From assembly GCA_019638675.1 (NCBI GenBank), contig JAHBTE010000001.1:590605-654604 (forward strand): a stretch of 64,000 bases of DNA, given 5' to 3'. Each line of letters opens with the position of its first letter. The first letter of the stretch is position 1. This document shows positions 1-30,819 of this stretch, piece after piece. The notes under the pieces are model-generated. The model worked only from the letters and a program-made list of their open reading frames with translations. It was not told the DNA's origin and did no database searches. Source of the stretch: Fimbriimonadaceae bacterium (lineage in GTDB: Bacteria; Armatimonadota; Fimbriimonadia; Fimbriimonadales; Fimbriimonadaceae). A program made the translations under genes and the position numbers.

Positions 1-638
1 TAGATCGGGATGATCTTGTGAGTGCCGGCGTTATTGGCCTCATCAAAGCCGTAGATCAATACGATCCAACTCGCGACGTTAAGTTTGAAACATACGCAAT
101 TGCGCTTGTTCGCGGGGCCATCTTGGAAATGCTCCGGGATGAAGACTGGGTTCCTCGGTCAATCCGCGAAAAGCTCAAAGCTCTTGATAAAGCTAACCAA
201 AAGCTAGAGACCGAATACGGTCGTCCTCCTAGCCACCGTGAGCTAAGCGACTACCTTGGATATTCCGAACAAGAAGTTTCCGACCTCCTCGTTCGAGTTG
301 GCCGCACCAGTGTTTACTCGCTCGATGACATCGTTGGGGGCGGCGGTTCTGAAGGCGACGACAATATCCATTTCGTCGAAATGATCGTAGACGAAGATGC
401 TGACACCGATGGTCAGATTGAGGGCCAAGAACTTCGCCGCGCAATGGCGGCGGGTGTAGACCGGCTTCCAGAACGCGAACGACTCGTAATCGCGCTTTAT
501 TACTTTGAAGGTTTGACATTCAAAGAAATCGGCAAAGTGTTAACCGTGAGCGAAAGCCGCGTTTATCAACTTCATACTCAAGCGATGGGAAGACTCCGAA
601 ACTTCTTGAAAGATGAAGGAGTCCCGCACGTCGCATAA
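1..638 (+). CDS. FliA/WhiG-like sigma factor, 5' truncated by window edge
   Basis: Alternative sigma-70 family factor that directs RNA polymerase to its own promoter class. The reading frame is open from the first bases (codons begin at position 3), and the residues before the first GTG (DRDDL) continue the region 2 motif DLVSAGVIGLIKA, so the true start lies left of the window. Region 2 is followed by VPRSIREK (region 3 entry) and a C-terminal region 4 (LPERERLVIALYYFEGL, then ESRVYQLHTQAMGRLR), which resembles FliA and WhiG more than RpoD. A small charged protein follows after 12 bases. Family assignment is firm; whether it serves motility or development cannot be told from here. Confidence 0.9.
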   Translation, partial: DRDDLVSAGVIGLIKAVDQYDPTRDVKFETYAIALVRGAILEMLRDEDWVPRSIREKLKALDKANQKLETEYGRPPSHRELSDYLGYSEQEVSDLLVRVGRTSVYSLDDIVGGGGSEGDDNIHFVEMIVDEDADTDGQIEGQELRRAMAAGVDRLPERERLVIALYYFEGLTFKEIGKVLTVSESRVYQLHTQAMGRLRNFLKDEGVPHVA

Positions 639-9730: not shown

Positions 9731-11005
9731 CTATGCCGCTTCGCTTTGACCCGCTTCGTTCATGCGATTCATCGCAATCTTGATCAAGTCCGCGCCACCG
9801 CGAGCTTCATCAGGCGTGGTTGCGTAGCCGAACTTAAGTTGAACCGAACCAGAACCCGACATGCGAGTGACTAGCCACTTATCAACTTTGGCTTGCAGGC
9901 GAGCGCAAACCATGTTTGCGTTCGGGCCAGTACCGGGCAAGATCACTCCGAACCCAGTTGAACCGTTGCGGCAAACAATGTCGAGCGCACGAACGCTGTT
10001 CTTGAGGAACGCAGAAACGTCCACCAGGAAGTCGCGAACGGTTTCGTCGCCATAGAATCCGCGAAGTCCGCTCAAGCCTTCCACGTCAACCAGAATCACA
10101 CTGCAGGTGCCTTCGGTTGAAACAGCTCGGTGAGCTTCTTCGCTCAATCGAGCGCGGAAGTAGTCTTCATCGTAGATGCCAGTTTCTGAATCGATGACCG
10201 ATCTTTCTTCTGGGCTTTCGCTTCGGAGAGCGATTTCTTCCCGTACATCTTGCGAAAGAATCTTGCGAAGCTTGCTCAGCGACTGTCGGAGAATGTGCGA
10301 AACATAATTGCAGGAAATTCCGAGTCGGTTGGCAATTTCGGTTTGATTCAACGCATCGAAGTGGAATAGACAAAGAACTTCTCGTTCCAGGTCGCGTAGT
10401 TGCTCCATTGCAGATTCAAGCAGAACGCGGTCTTCTACGCTGACTTGCTCAACACTCGAAAGAGCTGCGTCAAGTCGGTCAATATCGCTGTCTCCGCCTT
10501 CACCGTCATCGCCCGGAGTGGTATCCAAAGATGCGATTTTAACTGTTTCTTGGCTTGCTTGTACTTCGGCAACCGCGGTTTCGCTGATTCCACATCGTTC
10601 TGCGATTTCGCGCGTCGTTGGAACGCGTGCGAGTTCTCCTTGCAGAGCTTGTGTTGCCTTGTTCACCTTGTGGCGCAGTTCCTGCAACCAGGCCGGGTGG
10701 CGAATTGTTTGCGCCCGATCTCGCAGATAGTGCTTGATTTCGCCTGCGATCAGGTGCGTTGCGTAAGTATTAAATTGTACGCCCACCGTTGCATCGAACT
10801 TACTGAGCGCATTCAGCAGCCCAATAAACCCAACTTGGGTGAGATCATCAAGCGGTTCAGTTCCACTGTACCGACGAGCAATCCTCTCTACCATGCCTGA
10901 GTAATGAACGATTACCAGGTCTTTTAAGTCAGGACGAGGATCAGCGAGATACCGTAGTACCAGTGCTTCTGCGTCACCCTGATTTTTAGCTAATGCTTCC
11001 GACAT
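9731..11005 (-). CDS. SigB/SigF-like sigma factor fused to a degenerate GGDEF domain
   Basis: One uninterrupted 424-residue protein. Residues about 28-255 form a sigma-70 factor: region 2 with PLDDLTQVGFIGLLNAL and GEIKHYLRDR (close to the SigB/SigF/SigG type), region 3 with PTTREIAERCGIS, and region 4 with LNQTEIANRLGIS and HILRQSLSKLRK. Residues about 270-415 form a GGDEF domain: DSETGIYDEDYF matches the family N-terminus and VDVEGL carries the metal Asp307. The signature GGDEF reads GSTGF (348-352), so cyclase activity should be lost, but the inhibitory-site RxxD is intact as RALD (339-342), exactly five residues before it. Start at ATG 11005 is supported by GGAG five bases upstream. Confidence 0.9.
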   Translation of the reverse strand: MSEALAKNQGDAEALVLRYLADPRPDLKDLVIVHYSGMVERIARRYSGTEPLDDLTQVGFIGLLNALSKFDATVGVQFNTYATHLIAGEIKHYLRDRAQTIRHPAWLQELRHKVNKATQALQGELARVPTTREIAERCGISETAVAEVQASQETVKIASLDTTPGDDGEGGDSDIDRLDAALSSVEQVSVEDRVLLESAMEQLRDLEREVLCLFHFDALNQTEIANRLGISCNYVSHILRQSLSKLRKILSQDVREEIALRSESPEERSVIDSETGIYDEDYFRARLSEEAHRAVSTEGTCSVILVDVEGLSGLRGFYGDETVRDFLVDVSAFLKNSVRALDIVCRNGSTGFGVILPGTGPNANMVCARLQAKVDKWLVTRMSGSGSVQLKFGYATTPDEARGGADLIKIAMNRMNEAGQSEAA

Positions 11006-11026
11006 TTTCACTCCATTGAACAGTTT

Positions 11027-11154: not shown

Positions 11155-12357
11155 TTATTTAACGCTGTTGACCAGTTTGAAGATCGGGGTCATAACCGAG
11201 ATGGCGATGAAACCAACAATCACACCGAGGAAGATAATGAGCAGAGGTTCAATCATTGAGGTCAATCCTTTAACGGTTTGCTCGACTTCACTATCGTAAA
11301 AATCTCCAACTTTGACGAGCATGTCGCTCAAACGACCGGATTCTTCACCGATGTCGATCATTTGAGTAACCATCGCCGGGAAGAGGCCTGAGTTTGCCAA
11401 TGGCATACTGAGCTTGTTCCCTTCGCGGATGCTGAGGCGGGTTTGATCAACCGCTTGGCAAAGCACTTGGTTGCCCAAGGTTTCGCTGACGATCTCCAAA
11501 CTGCGCATCATTGGAACACCTGAGTTGATCAAGGTTCCTAAAGTGCGGCAGAACCGCGCGACGCTCATCTTGAGGCTCAACTCACCCATGATTGGGAATT
11601 TGAGCTTCAGCCAGTCCATTTGATAGCGACCTTTTGGAGTCTTGGAATAGCTCTTGAGACCAAACAGCATTGCGCCGAGCGCTACCAGGATCATCCACCA
11701 AGACTTCTGCATGAAGTCGCCCATTGCAAAAAGAGCGGCGGTGACGGCCGGAAGTTCAACATCCATCCCGTCGAAAATCTCTTTGAACTTAGGCAAAACA
11801 AAACTGAACAATACAAACAGCATGATCTGGGAGAATCCCAAAACCAAGATCGGATACATCATCGCACTCTTGATCTTGCCTTTGACCTCGGCTTCGTATT
11901 CCAAGAATCCGGAAAGGCGGTCAAGAATCGTATCCAAAATCCCGCCGATTTCTGCGGCTCGGATCATGTTGACGTACAGCTTGCTGAAAATCGTTGGATG
12001 CTTTGCCAAAGCTTCGTTCAAACTCAAACCACCCTTAACATCTGAAGTGATTGTTTCGAGTGCTGGCTTCAAAGCTTGGTCTTTACATTGAGATGTGAGA
12101 ATTTCGAGGCAGCGGAGAATAGGGATACCTGCATCGATCATCGTGGCAAACTGCCGGCTAAACACAACCAAAGACTTCATCTTGAGCTTGTGCTTGCCAA
12201 CCGTTACGGCTTTCTTCTTCTTGAGCTCTTTGATATCTACGACTTGTAATTGCTGCTCACGAAGGCGCCCCAGAACAAGAGCTTCATGTTCTGCCTCCAT
12301 GACCGCCTTGACCTGTCGGCCAGTCGAATCCATTGCTGTGTATGCGAAATAAGGCAT
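11155..12357 (-). CDS. pilC: type II secretion/type IV pilus inner-membrane platform protein
   Basis: Polytopic platform protein of type IV pilus or type II secretion assembly (PilC/GspF). It carries two T2SF domains (about residues 60-185 and 265-390), each with the FSRQFATMIDAGIPIL or FCRTLGTLINSGVPMM segment and GGIL- or ESGRLSDML-type loops, and three transmembrane helices. At 400 residues it has normal length. ATG 12357 gives the family N-terminus MPYFAYTAMDSTGR and has GAGGAGAA upstream, so it is preferred over an in-frame codon 36 bases earlier. No other pilus gene lies beside it. Confidence 0.92.
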   Translation of the reverse strand: MPYFAYTAMDSTGRQVKAVMEAEHEALVLGRLREQQLQVVDIKELKKKKAVTVGKHKLKMKSLVVFSRQFATMIDAGIPILRCLEILTSQCKDQALKPALETITSDVKGGLSLNEALAKHPTIFSKLYVNMIRAAEIGGILDTILDRLSGFLEYEAEVKGKIKSAMMYPILVLGFSQIMLFVLFSFVLPKFKEIFDGMDVELPAVTAALFAMGDFMQKSWWMILVALGAMLFGLKSYSKTPKGRYQMDWLKLKFPIMGELSLKMSVARFCRTLGTLINSGVPMMRSLEIVSETLGNQVLCQAVDQTRLSIREGNKLSMPLANSGLFPAMVTQMIDIGEESGRLSDMLVKVGDFYDSEVEQTVKGLTSMIEPLLIIFLGVIVGFIAISVMTPIFKLVNSVK

Positions 12358-12597
12358 TCTGCCGGTTCTCCTCGAAGCTACTGTTATCAGCACTCCGACC
12401 CAGGGAAGATTGTCGGCAACCCAGCATGCCCGCCATTAGTGAAAACTCGTAAAAATAGCTGGAAAATCGAGAAAAACTGGTAACTCGGCCCGAGCCTAAA
12501 CTCAAACTTAAAGTGGACTGTTAACTTTGCCAGTGGGTATCTCCGTTTTTCCCACCCGTTGAGTCAGAATTTCTCCGCCATGTCACAATAGAGCAAT

Positions 12598-18599: not shown

Positions 18600-18615
18600 T
18601 TGGCATAGGGATTGC
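18600..18615 (+). promoter_or_regulatory. sigma-54-like promoter element upstream of a sigma factor gene
   Basis: TTGGCAT-AGGGA-TTGC places GG and GC exactly 12 bases apart, as in -24/-12 promoters (consensus TGGCAC-N5-TTGC). It lies about 63 bases before the sigma-factor ATG. Seen by eye only; rpoN and an activator site are not in this window. Confidence 0.35.
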
Positions 18616-18677
18616 CAGGATGGCCTATTAGGAGTGAAACCTCCATCAAGTTCCTCCGTGTTCAAAAACAAGGGTCA

Positions 18678-19523
18678 ATGCACCGAGAATCCGCCCGCCA
18701 CGATACTAGCTCTGCCAGTTACTTGAGTCGATTGACTCAGGCACCCCTTCTCACGGCTGAAGAAGAGAAGGTGCTCACGGTTGAAGCTCAAAACGGTTGC
18801 GCGGAAGCAAAAGAACGGCTTGTCGAATCAAATATACGCCTAGTTATCAATATCGCCAAATCTTATCAATCCCGAGCGATTCCCCTTGAAGATCTAATTC
18901 AAGAGGGTGTCATCGGACTGATTACGGCAATCGAAAGGTTTGATCCCACCAAAGGATTCCGATTCTCAACTTACGCTACTCACTGGGTTAAGCAAGCCAT
19001 CGGTCGCGCGGTGGATTGCAAAGCGAAAACGATTCGACTTCCTGCCCACATCAGCCAAACCTTGAGGAAAGTCGAAAAAACCCGGAGCGACCTCACTCAC
19101 AGCACTGGTGCAGAGCCAACTCCCGAACAGCTTGCCCGCGAAATGGGAATGAGCCTGAGGAAACTAAATTCCCTGCTTCAAGCGTCTCAAGAACTTATCA
19201 GCTTAGATGTCCGTGTAGGAGATGGCGAAAATACAACCCTCGGGGCAATGATTCACGATTCAGGTGCTCACGATCCCGAAGCGCTCGTGCTACAAAGCGA
19301 AATCATTGAAGAACTACAAGAGGTTCTGTTGTTGCTTACGGATCGAGAACGACGCATCGTGACCTATCGTCTACGCAACGACGACGGAACCACCAATTTC
19401 CGCGACGACCTCAGCGAAGAACTACATATCACCCGTGAGCGAGTTCGCCAGATAGAAATCCAAGCGATAAAGAAACTACGACAGATCGCCACTCGGCGTA
19501 AATCTAAGGAATATTTCGCTTAA
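18678..19523 (+). CDS. RpoD-like (group 2) sigma-70 factor
   Basis: A 281-residue sigma factor close to the housekeeping type but without region 1.1. It begins at region 1.2 (YLSRLTQAPLLTAEEE), has region 2 with LVINIAKSYQSRAIPLEDLIQEGVIG and FSTYATHWVKQAI, region 3, and region 4 ending in TRERVRQIEIQAIKKLRQ. ATG 18678 is preferred because AAGGG lies five bases upstream; a TTG at 18612 would add 22 residues. It is probably a non-essential stress or growth-phase sigma factor (inference), the third sigma factor in this window. Confidence 0.9.
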   Translation: MHRESARHDTSSASYLSRLTQAPLLTAEEEKVLTVEAQNGCAEAKERLVESNIRLVINIAKSYQSRAIPLEDLIQEGVIGLITAIERFDPTKGFRFSTYATHWVKQAIGRAVDCKAKTIRLPAHISQTLRKVEKTRSDLTHSTGAEPTPEQLAREMGMSLRKLNSLLQASQELISLDVRVGDGENTTLGAMIHDSGAHDPEALVLQSEIIEELQEVLLLLTDRERRIVTYRLRNDDGTTNFRDDLSEELHITRERVRQIEIQAIKKLRQIATRRKSKEYFA

Positions 19524-28487: not shown

Positions 28488-28967
28488 TTAAGCGGCAGCT
28501 TCTTTAGCCGATCTCAAACTCACATAAATCTCAATTTCACCGACGCCTTCTATTAAAATCGGGATCACCAGAGTTGGAGTGTCAATTCTGGACATACGGA
28601 TGTTTGCGCCCTTGATAATGGTTTGAGATGCCATGTCCGTCGGAAAGCCTTCGGCTGCTAGGAGTTTGAGAGAGCTATCACTCAGTCGTTGCCCAAGTTC
28701 GGCAATCGCAACATCGGCCTCAGCCGTGATATCCGAAAACTGCTTATCTCTCAGCTTTCCCGCGAGTTTTCGGGCTGTGCCTGAGTCCATTCCATAAATG
28801 ACCTGCCCTTCAATTTCGCCCGAAATGGCGCACAAAATATTGATTTGCTGAGATGTGAACAATTCAGGTCGCGCTGAAAGTTGCCCACGTTCGGGCGTGA
28901 TGCCGAAGATTTCTTCGATCACCAAGATCGAACCGGATACGAATGGTGTGATGTACTCAACTTTCAT
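28488..28967 (-). CDS. cheX: CheX-like protein with altered phosphatase motif
   Basis: A 159-residue CheX/CheC-family domain, normally a phosphatase for phospho-CheY. The fold is recognised from TPFVSGSILVIEEIFG, GEIEGQVIYGM, and the catalytic helix VAIAELGQRLSD. In that helix the usual ExxN is Glu90-x-x-Gln93, so the catalytic Asn is replaced. It is the last gene of a cheD-HDOD-cheX operon. It could be a weak phosphatase or a binding domain only (inference). Symbol is by family. Confidence 0.78.
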   Translation of the reverse strand: MKVEYITPFVSGSILVIEEIFGITPERGQLSARPELFTSQQINILCAISGEIEGQVIYGMDSGTARKLAGKLRDKQFSDITAEADVAIAELGQRLSDSSLKLLAAEGFPTDMASQTIIKGANIRMSRIDTPTLVIPILIEGVGEIEIYVSLRSAKEAAA

Positions 28968-28990
28968 AGTGAATCATCACTCACCGGGGT

Positions 28991-29854
28991 TTATGCGGCG
29001 AGTTCCTTGAATAGAGATTCGTACTCTTCGTACTGGGAGACAAATTCGTCGGTTAGTGCTTCGATATCTTCTGGTTTGATGTTCAGTCTAACTAAACTCT
29101 CTTCATCAAATCTGTAAAGCAGGCCGTCTCCGCCAAGCCCGTAACCCATGGAAGAGCAGATATAGTCACCGACATGAACGCAATCAACTAGTTCTTGGAA
29201 TTCCGTTGCGTTGCTCGGTTTGTGGTGAAACAAGTTGCAGGCACAGATTTCTTCTGGTAAGTTCCAGTTGGTCGCGAGGTGGTATCCCACTTGGCAGTGA
29301 TCGTAGCCCAGAACTCTGCGCTCGGCTTCATCGTAAGAAATTCCTTCCCGGCCGGCATAGAGCAGAATCGCGCCCATCTTGTTTTCAAGCCAAACGCTGA
29401 GAGCAACTTTGCCTAAATCGTGGAGAAGTCCAGCTGTAAATGCAACATCCTCTAATGCTTTTCGGGTTGCTCGTGCAACTAATTGGCTGGCGACCGCAGT
29501 TCCAAAAGCGTGACGCCACATTTCCTCTGGCCCAAGGCAGTAGCCAGTGAGAGGTCGTTGCATCCAAGGGTAGGTTCCTGCCACGAGCGCAAGGTTCTTA
29601 ACCGATTTCATCCCGAGAACAACAACTGCCTCACCAAGATCGGTGATTTTTCGCGAAAGGCCGTAAAACGCGCTGTTGGCCAACCGCAAAACTTTTGCGC
29701 TGAGAGCTTGGTCGGTAACTAAGATACGAGCAACTGTCGCAGCACTCGCCTTAGAAGACTGGGTTTCCCGCATGACTTTGATTGCAGCGGCAGGAATGGT
29801 GGGAAGATCGGATGTTTTTTGAACAATCTGTTCGATGGATACGGTGTGGCTCAT
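28991..29854 (-). CDS. HDOD domain protein
   Basis: A 287-residue HDOD protein: helical HD-related output domain, common in bacterial signalling and often near chemotaxis or c-di-GMP genes. Typical segments are LPTIPAAAIKVM, DQALSAKVLRLANSAFYG and GLLHDLGKVALS. An HD pair remains (LLHDLG) but HDOD proteins usually lack full phosphohydrolase ligands. ATG 29854 has GGAGG six bases upstream and overlaps the cheD stop (ATGA), so the two genes are coupled. Confidence 0.9.
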   Translation of the reverse strand: MSHTVSIEQIVQKTSDLPTIPAAAIKVMRETQSSKASAATVARILVTDQALSAKVLRLANSAFYGLSRKITDLGEAVVVLGMKSVKNLALVAGTYPWMQRPLTGYCLGPEEMWRHAFGTAVASQLVARATRKALEDVAFTAGLLHDLGKVALSVWLENKMGAILLYAGREGISYDEAERRVLGYDHCQVGYHLATNWNLPEEICACNLFHHKPSNATEFQELVDCVHVGDYICSSMGYGLGGDGLLYRFDEESLVRLNIKPEDIEALTDEFVSQYEEYESLFKELAA

Positions 29855-30378
29855 GCTGCCTCCAGTTGGGTTCGTTTTAAGATGCAAAGGGTTCTTTCGC
29901 CGCCGTTCGTTGTGCGGACTCGGACTTCACCGGATGCGCTTTCCACGATGAGAGTTCTTCCGTTATTGCCACCAAGGTCAGCGGCGAGCGTTCGGAGTTC
30001 AAGGCTATGAAGTTGGTCGGAAACCGCCGCGACGTTTCGAGTTCCGATGTTAAATTGCTGATTCCTTTCGGCACCAAAAGTAAAAACTTCCGCTCCGCCC
30101 ACGTATGCGATAACTAATCTTGATGCTAAGGCACCTTGTTCTTGCATCTGTCGCACGAGTTCAGCAATACCTGTGCTGACGTATCGGCCCGGTTTATCAA
30201 GAGAAGATTTGTTGAGTACTTTAGGAAGCATCATGTGGACTGTTCCTGTCACACCCGCGACTTCATCCATGGCCACCAGCCCGATGGAAGAACCGATACC
30301 AGGGCAAATCATCGTTGTTTGACCATTTGAGACTCTGATAGTGGCGGCTCCCACTAGAATCTGACTAGGATTTGACAT
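29851..30378 (-). CDS. cheD: CheD-like protein lacking the catalytic cysteine
   Basis: A 175-residue CheD homologue. CheD normally deamidates glutamines of chemoreceptors using a Cys-His pair. Alignment by eye with Thermotoga CheD (GLGSCVAV and 17 residues on to AHVMLP) is unambiguous: here GIGSSIGL and VHMMLP, so Cys27 is Ser while the His is kept at the right spacing, and the position of Thr21 is Cys. C-terminal conserved parts (NIGTRNVAAV, LGGNNGRTL) are intact. ATG 30378 has GAGGGGA upstream. Deamidase activity is doubtful; binding to CheX/CheC-like partners may remain. Confidence 0.85.
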   Translation of the reverse strand: MSNPSQILVGAATIRVSNGQTTMICPGIGSSIGLVAMDEVAGVTGTVHMMLPKVLNKSSLDKPGRYVSTGIAELVRQMQEQGALASRLVIAYVGGAEVFTFGAERNQQFNIGTRNVAAVSDQLHSLELRTLAADLGGNNGRTLIVESASGEVRVRTTNGGERTLCILKRTQLEAA

Positions 30379-30819
30379 ATCTAAAAGTCCCCTCTCATTA
30401 GATTCGAGTGTGTTGAATCTCTTCTCACCGCTGAACTCTGATGGTCGCGACTTTGTCCAGACACGGAAAATCTCATGGCACCAGTGCAAATAATCGGTAA
30501 GAAACTGCCTTTCCATTACACGTATCAGCTAACAAAAATGAGATTTTGAGTTAGGCGACTGAATTCAGACGCAGAAAGTTCGTTGCTATTAAAACTTTTT
30601 ACACTTTTTGATTAAAACATGGTTAAACTACGAGAGTAAGTCAAGGGTCATGACAGGTGCCGGATGTGCATCAGGACATGCCTAGAAAGACTTCTCCCAA
30701 AATTTGGGACGCAACGTTGCTCCTCTCCAGTTGTGTCCCACTTTTTTATTTCTGCATCACCATTTTTAGCTGCCAAAGGTCTAAGCTAGAACCAGCGGTA
30801 AAATGAAGGTTGGCAACTC
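30379..30819. other. intergenic region between divergent cheD and accB-like genes
   Basis: About 440 bases with no convincing gene. The left part, AT-rich, must hold the cheD promoter. The right part (about 30600-30750) has a hairpin series ending in a terminator upstream of the accB-like gene (listed separately). A short frame at 30650 (11 codons, AAGGG just upstream) could be a leader peptide but is not well supported. Confidence 0.5.
30636..30747 (+). promoter_or_regulatory. candidate attenuator/riboswitch leader of the accB-like operon
   Basis: AAGTC (about 30638) can pair with GACTT (about 30688), enclosing GTCATGAC and AGG/CCT-bounded hairpins. It is followed by a terminator: TGGGACGCAAC/GTTGTGTCCCA (11 bp with one G-U, 30705-30740), then six T residues. 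The terminator ends about 70 bases before the accB-like start codon, which fits transcriptional attenuation or a short separate sRNA. No known riboswitch class recognised. Confidence 0.45.

Follow-up and report, generated by a model that had tools for sequence, protein, structure and literature searches.

Control of a sigma factor by c-di-GMP is known so far only through the WhiG-RsiG pair. In Actinobacteria (Streptomyces, Rubrobacter), this pair places a group-3 sigma factor under c-di-GMP control; in Rubrobacter it has been inferred to control type IV pilus genes, and a 2021 paper stated that no other sigma-anti-sigma complex was known to be a c-di-GMP target (PMC8325347). The c-di-GMP dimer is bound by a separate coiled-coil anti-sigma factor. 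Dead GGDEF domains that keep an RxxD I-site can act as receptors, as in PelD of Pseudomonas and PopA of Caulobacter (PMC10519070, PMC12564702). Their outputs are exopolysaccharide synthesis or proteolysis. Sigma factors that sense a ligand in their own polypeptide are also known, namely CorE for copper (PMC3107203) and OrbS for iron (PMC9023288). Both are ECF (group 4) sigma factors with small metal-binding motifs and without an anti-sigma factor for that signal.

We analysed a 64,000-nucleotide stretch of a Fimbriimonadaceae genome (the window), which contains a gene that joins a group-3 sigma factor to a degenerate GGDEF domain. We think it likely, without binding or transcription data, that the product is a one-protein c-di-GMP switch, in which a sigma factor linked to type IV pili is gated by c-di-GMP at the I-site. 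The fusion resembles WhiG-RsiG in its sigma group, its predicted ligand and a suspected link to type IV pili, but its putative receptor is a GGDEF I-site in the same polypeptide. Similar to PelD and PopA, it has a GGDEF fold, a dead catalytic site and a retained RxxD, whereas its output is a sigma factor. The domain shares its fold and I-site residues with PleD and WspR, which are active enzymes with feedback inhibition; the fusion domain lacks the signature and the metal ligands. The proposed sensing within the sigma factor recalls CorE and OrbS, but here a complete second-messenger-type domain is attached to a group-3 sigma factor.

A literature search found no published sigma-GGDEF fusion, although most subscription journals were outside its reach. 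The claim of the initial annotation to know of no described precedent needs a narrower form, as CorE and OrbS show that some sigma factors carry metal sensors of their own. If the switch is real, no wiring from messenger to promoter choice could be more direct than this sigma factor, which occurs phylum-wide and would contain its own c-di-GMP pocket; it would possibly also be a second, independent sigma-based route for c-di-GMP control of type IV pili.

A group-3 sigma factor fused to a degenerate GGDEF domain

The fusion gene has the following features:

9731..11011 (-), sigma-GGDEF fusion gene, 426 aa; GTG start at 11011, alternative in-frame ATG at 11005 (ORF call, Pfam, orthologues)
10712..10909 (-), sigma-70 region 2, residues 35-100 (Pfam PF04542, E 2.6e-15)
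10490..10681 (-), sigma-70 region 3, residues 111-174 (Pfam PF04539, E 2e-11)
10262..10411 (-), sigma-70 region 4, residues 201-250 (Pfam PF04545, E 7.6e-13)
9743..10198 (-), degenerate GGDEF domain, residues 272-423 (Pfam PF00990, E 2.8e-17; pLDDT 94; PleD Z 21)
10127..10129 (-), R295, equivalent of PleD R313, the second-subunit I-site arginine (kept in 93/94)
9980..9991 (-), I-site motif RALD, residues 341-344 (R and D invariant; aligns with PleD RAID)
9950..9964 (-), GSTGF in place of GG[DE]EF, residues 350-354 (degenerate in every orthologue)
9899..9901 (-), R371, equivalent of PleD R390, an I-site arginine (kept in 89/94)

The initial annotation had read a complete sigma factor (regions 2-4) and a C-terminal GGDEF domain in one protein, starting from the ATG at 11005. 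The ORF call and Pfam bear this out: a single uninterrupted ORF, 426 residues long from the GTG, encodes the fusion, and the matches to Sigma70_r2, Sigma70_r3, Sigma70_r4 and GGDEF are all above the curated cut-offs. Its reading of the motifs was also exact, with GSTGF at the catalytic position and RALD five residues before it, separated by IVCRN.

By its Pfam regions 2, 3 and 4, the protein qualifies as a group 3 member of the sigma-70 family; it does not have the ECF architecture (regions 2 and 4 only), as region 3 is present. Its best NCBIfam family was SigB/SigF/SigG (TIGR02980), at 185.8 bits and below the cut-off of 234.35. The match to the FliA/WhiG subfamily (TIGR02479) was likewise below its cut-off (120.5 against 189.6 bits).

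The fusion is widespread in Armatimonadota

The source genome (2.85 Mb, three contigs) is not alone in carrying the gene. A 99% identical copy is present in Fimbriimonadaceae bacterium CP075366.1, and nearly all of 61 relatives have a full-length homologue. With a profile built from 94 orthologues (29-82% identical to the window's protein), we found the fusion in about 188 of 291 Armatimonadota species genomes (E below 1e-85, counted from the table of matches); the survey covers this phylum only. Among the matches listed, alignments span both domains except at contig ends or broken frames. Because full-length matches occur in most of the 61 relatives and across the phylum, an assembly or frameshift artefact, which would have undone the initial annotation, is ruled out.

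In a tree of the sigma part, the fused sigma factors form one clade (support 0.90), sister to SigF-like paralogues without a GGDEF domain. One early fusion followed by losses would be the simplest history. Weaker matches (E 1e-53 to 1e-67) were considered as orthologues without the GGDEF domain; most of them are the separate SigF-like paralogue, whose helix-turn-helix reads SQMHVSR where the fused family has SCNYVSH. Only one of the weaker matches, L153 in family f17, is a true orthologue that has lost the domain, and its genome retains two other GGDEF domains.

A frameshift breaks the fusion gene in L013 (genome G006, CP021423.1) and in L158/L170 (genome G274), either by sequencing error or by real loss. 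Genomes G128, G139, G141, G142 and G144 have lost the fusion and its cognate pilC, yet keep 4-11 GGDEF matches.

c-di-GMP signalling in genomes with the fusion

We assessed the other c-di-GMP-related domains in these genomes. Besides the fusion, the window's genome gave nine GGDEF matches, one of them under the cut-off, along with three EAL, four HD-GYP and four PilZ matches. Each of the about 188 fusion genomes has at least one further GGDEF match, and 16 of the 103 genomes without the fusion have no GGDEF at all. The genomes with zero are weak independent evidence, since the fusion itself guarantees its genome at least one match; what can usefully be said is that a second GGDEF is present in every fusion genome. 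Two relatives with 1.5 Mb genomes have exactly one canonical GGEEF cyclase besides the fusion, with two PilZ matches and no match to EAL or HD-GYP. The sole canonical cyclase of one genome (G164) is a receiver-PAS-GGEEF protein. Three relatives of Fimbriimonas (G129, G130, G137) gave no match to GGDEF, PilZ or HD-GYP, an apparent complete loss of c-di-GMP signalling, and the fusion and its pilC are also absent from them.

In the window's genome, RsbW-type matches sit in long ORFs of 529-694 aa and we saw no evident free-standing anti-sigma kinase of this type; the two 1.5 Mb relatives gave no RsbW-type match. This fits direct control of the sigma factor; it does not exclude another anti-sigma factor.

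Predicted structure

The isolated GGDEF domain was modelled with a pLDDT of 94, and its best structural match was PleD with c-di-GMP (2wb4; Z 21.0, rmsd 2.0, 157 residues). In the full-length AlphaFold2 model (mean pLDDT 87, pTM 0.53), the domains are confident and their mutual arrangement is not. A fold search with this model also matched SigB and the WhiG-RsiG-c-di-GMP complex. In the model, a helix (residues 234-264) extends from region 4 towards the linker ahead of the GGDEF domain. By joining region 4 to the linker, it offers a path by which ligand-driven movement could reach the part of the sigma factor that meets the -35 element and the polymerase flap, an inference from the model.

We aligned the domain with PleD, whose I-site residues we take to be R313, R359, D362 and R390. 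RAID of PleD falls under RALD, R313 under R295 and R390 under R371.

The I-site is conserved and the catalytic signature is lost

Random substitution of the RxxD residues among orthologues would have refuted the initial annotation. We observed the opposite: across the 94 aligned sequences, the C-terminal domain has just two invariant columns, R341 and D344, and a domain-only alignment likewise singles out these two alone. After clustering at 60% identity, RxxD is kept in 49 of 49 representatives. R295 and R371 are kept in 93 and 89 of the 94 orthologues, and all four I-site residues occur together in 88; a few lineages, the two 1.5 Mb genomes among them, lack R371. The catalytic signature exists in 79 versions, none of them GGDEF-like.

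Other GGDEF domains do not share this pattern. We compared the fusions with 30 such domains from genomes of the phylum. The RxxD arginine is present in all 94 fusions and in 21/30 other domains, the R295 equivalent in 93/94 and 12/30, and the R371 equivalent in 89/94 and about 19/30. The metal aspartate runs in the opposite direction (11/94 fusions, 28/30 others). Fisher tests on these contrasts ignore the relatedness of the sequences. By the lack of the GG[DE]EF signature and metal ligands, the domain fails the criteria for an active diguanylate cyclase; its fold, lost signature and RxxD agree with degenerate receptors of the PelD/PopA type, with c-di-GMP binding itself inferred. As the initial annotation had proposed, catalysis is predicted to be lost and the I-site is kept. 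The conservation pattern is that expected of a domain selected for binding c-di-GMP and not for making it; this is a prediction from the alignments, and there are no binding data.

Three residues on helix alpha-1, R288, E291 and E292 (window about 10136-10150, minus strand), are 97-99% conserved in the fusions and variable in other GGDEF domains. They are a possible sigma-facing contact surface.

The I-site arginine and aspartate occur in many active GGDEF domains, and the aspartate at D344 can be structural. The domain could be a non-binding scaffold that dimerises or docks a partner. R341, D344, R295 and R371 would then be retained because the fold needs them, or because they touch the sigma domain or a partner protein. 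The conservation of R288, E291 and E292 without a known ligand role would suit a scaffold, as would the finding that D344 and R348 are conserved in ordinary GGDEF domains too. However, both fully invariant positions are the primary I-site pair, the set conserved in excess of other GGDEF domains includes the second-subunit arginine, for which we know of no folding role, and every fusion genome has another GGDEF. We regard a pure scaffold as unlikely, though not negligible.

Binding of GTP or (p)ppGpp is known for GGDEF folds (PleD entries 9g85, 9g86), and the domain could instead make the sigma factor responsive to GTP, ppGpp or another cyclic dinucleotide. The active site has lost its residues to random substitution, whereas the positions under conservation correspond to the c-di-GMP contacts of PleD, and a different nucleotide seems quite improbable to us. 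We give hardly any credence to a remnant drifting towards loss without a regulatory role. The domain loss in f17 and the frameshifts in G006 and G274 point that way, but drift is incompatible with an RxxD that is invariant in 49/49 representatives below 60% identity.

Linkage to pilC

The gene directly upstream of the fusion encodes a type IV pilus platform protein:

11155..12393 (-), cognate pilC (Pfam T2SSF, E 1.8e-62)

The conserved start of pilC is probably the ATG at 12357 (MPYFAY). In most loci across the phylum, pilC lies directly upstream of the fusion on the same strand. Other families have the orders pilB-pilT-pilC-sigma, pilT-pilC-sigma with a pilin-like gene beyond, or a divergent pilT-pilC. 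The fusion gene lies away from pilC in several families, e.g. f12 and f13. In those Fimbriimonas genomes from which the fusion is absent, the cognate pilC (E 1e-115 or better) is missing too, and a generic paralogue (about 1e-97) is all that remains.

A putative c-di-GMP-gated sigma factor

The c-di-GMP switch that we prefer rests on an observed fusion of single origin, lost catalytic residues, an invariant I-site, a predicted fold and linkage to pilC. That the ligand binds, how binding would act allosterically and with which sign, and which genes make up the regulon are all inferences. The N-terminal part would be a working group-3 (SigB/SigF-like) sigma factor. The GGDEF domain would not synthesise c-di-GMP and would bind it at R341, D344 and R371, as in PleD, with a second copy, or the ligand's partner side, supplying R295. 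Binding may move the domain, whose tether follows region 4 directly, or alter its oligomeric state, and this change would decide whether the sigma factor joins RNA polymerase. If WhiG-RsiG and ligand-bridged GGDEF dimers are a guide, a sigma factor held inactive at high c-di-GMP is slightly more likely. Type IV pilus functions are probably among the targets of the sigma factor, although this regulon is inferred. We counted the occurrence of the I-site pair in active GGDEF domains, the possible structural role of D344, the losses of R371, the domain loss in L153, the loci away from pilC and the unexplained R288, E291 and E292 as points against the switch.

We also favour, with more reserve, a wider account in which a cis-encoded c-di-GMP-gated sigma factor arose a single time, early in the history of Armatimonadota, and persisted across the phylum, linking messenger and pili in one polypeptide independently of WhiG-RsiG. 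A ligand dimer held between R341, D344 and R371 of one domain and R295 of another would then pair two sigma factors. The family supplies natural variants: domain-less orthologues, lineages without R371 and relatives without c-di-GMP signalling.

A promoter-like element upstream of pilC

Upstream of pilC, we observed a bipartite element:

12409..12417 (-), GCCGACAAT, conserved -10-like element of a sigma-28/WhiG-type promoter
12433..12441 (-), CACTAATGG, weaker -35-like element at a fixed spacing from the -10-like element

In Fimbriimonadales, it reads roughly CC(T/G)TGNGGAA and then KCCGANAAT, with fixed spacing, 14-70 nt before the start codon of pilC. It occurs in 53 of 61 upstream regions (46 distinct sequences) and is absent from shuffled upstream sequences. 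The -10-like part resembles the flagellar consensus GCCGATAA quoted in PMC8325347. In a search of 464 kb of the genome, leaving pilC aside, the best clear match that is followed by a gene precedes flgK (L199:18531-19916, plus strand). A weaker match in the window's genome precedes a gene for an MshEN protein, of a c-di-GMP-binding type (L201:15825-16463, minus strand).

The genome's own FliA/WhiG sigma factor (L003:1441-2226; 232.8 bits, above the cut-off) is encoded at the left edge of the window (1-638, plus strand), about 10 kb from the fusion, and similar sigma genes lie near the fusion in several relatives. We considered the pilC promoter as proof that the sigma-GGDEF protein reads its own operon; this is unproven. 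Because the element also precedes flgK and is flagellar-like, the simpler reader is FliA, whose gene lies about 10 kb away. The operon is probably read by FliA and possibly also by the sigma-GGDEF protein itself. Because the pilC promoter looks like a FliA promoter, it says nothing about what the sigma-GGDEF protein transcribes. Reading by FliA would place the sigma-GGDEF protein in a surface-motility hierarchy.

Elsewhere in the window, a further sigma factor is encoded at 18612-19523 (plus strand), which the tree places with RpoD-type sigma factors. At 28488-30516 (minus strand), adjoining genes for a CheX-like protein (below the Pfam cut-off), an HDOD protein and CheD form a chemotaxis-type cluster.
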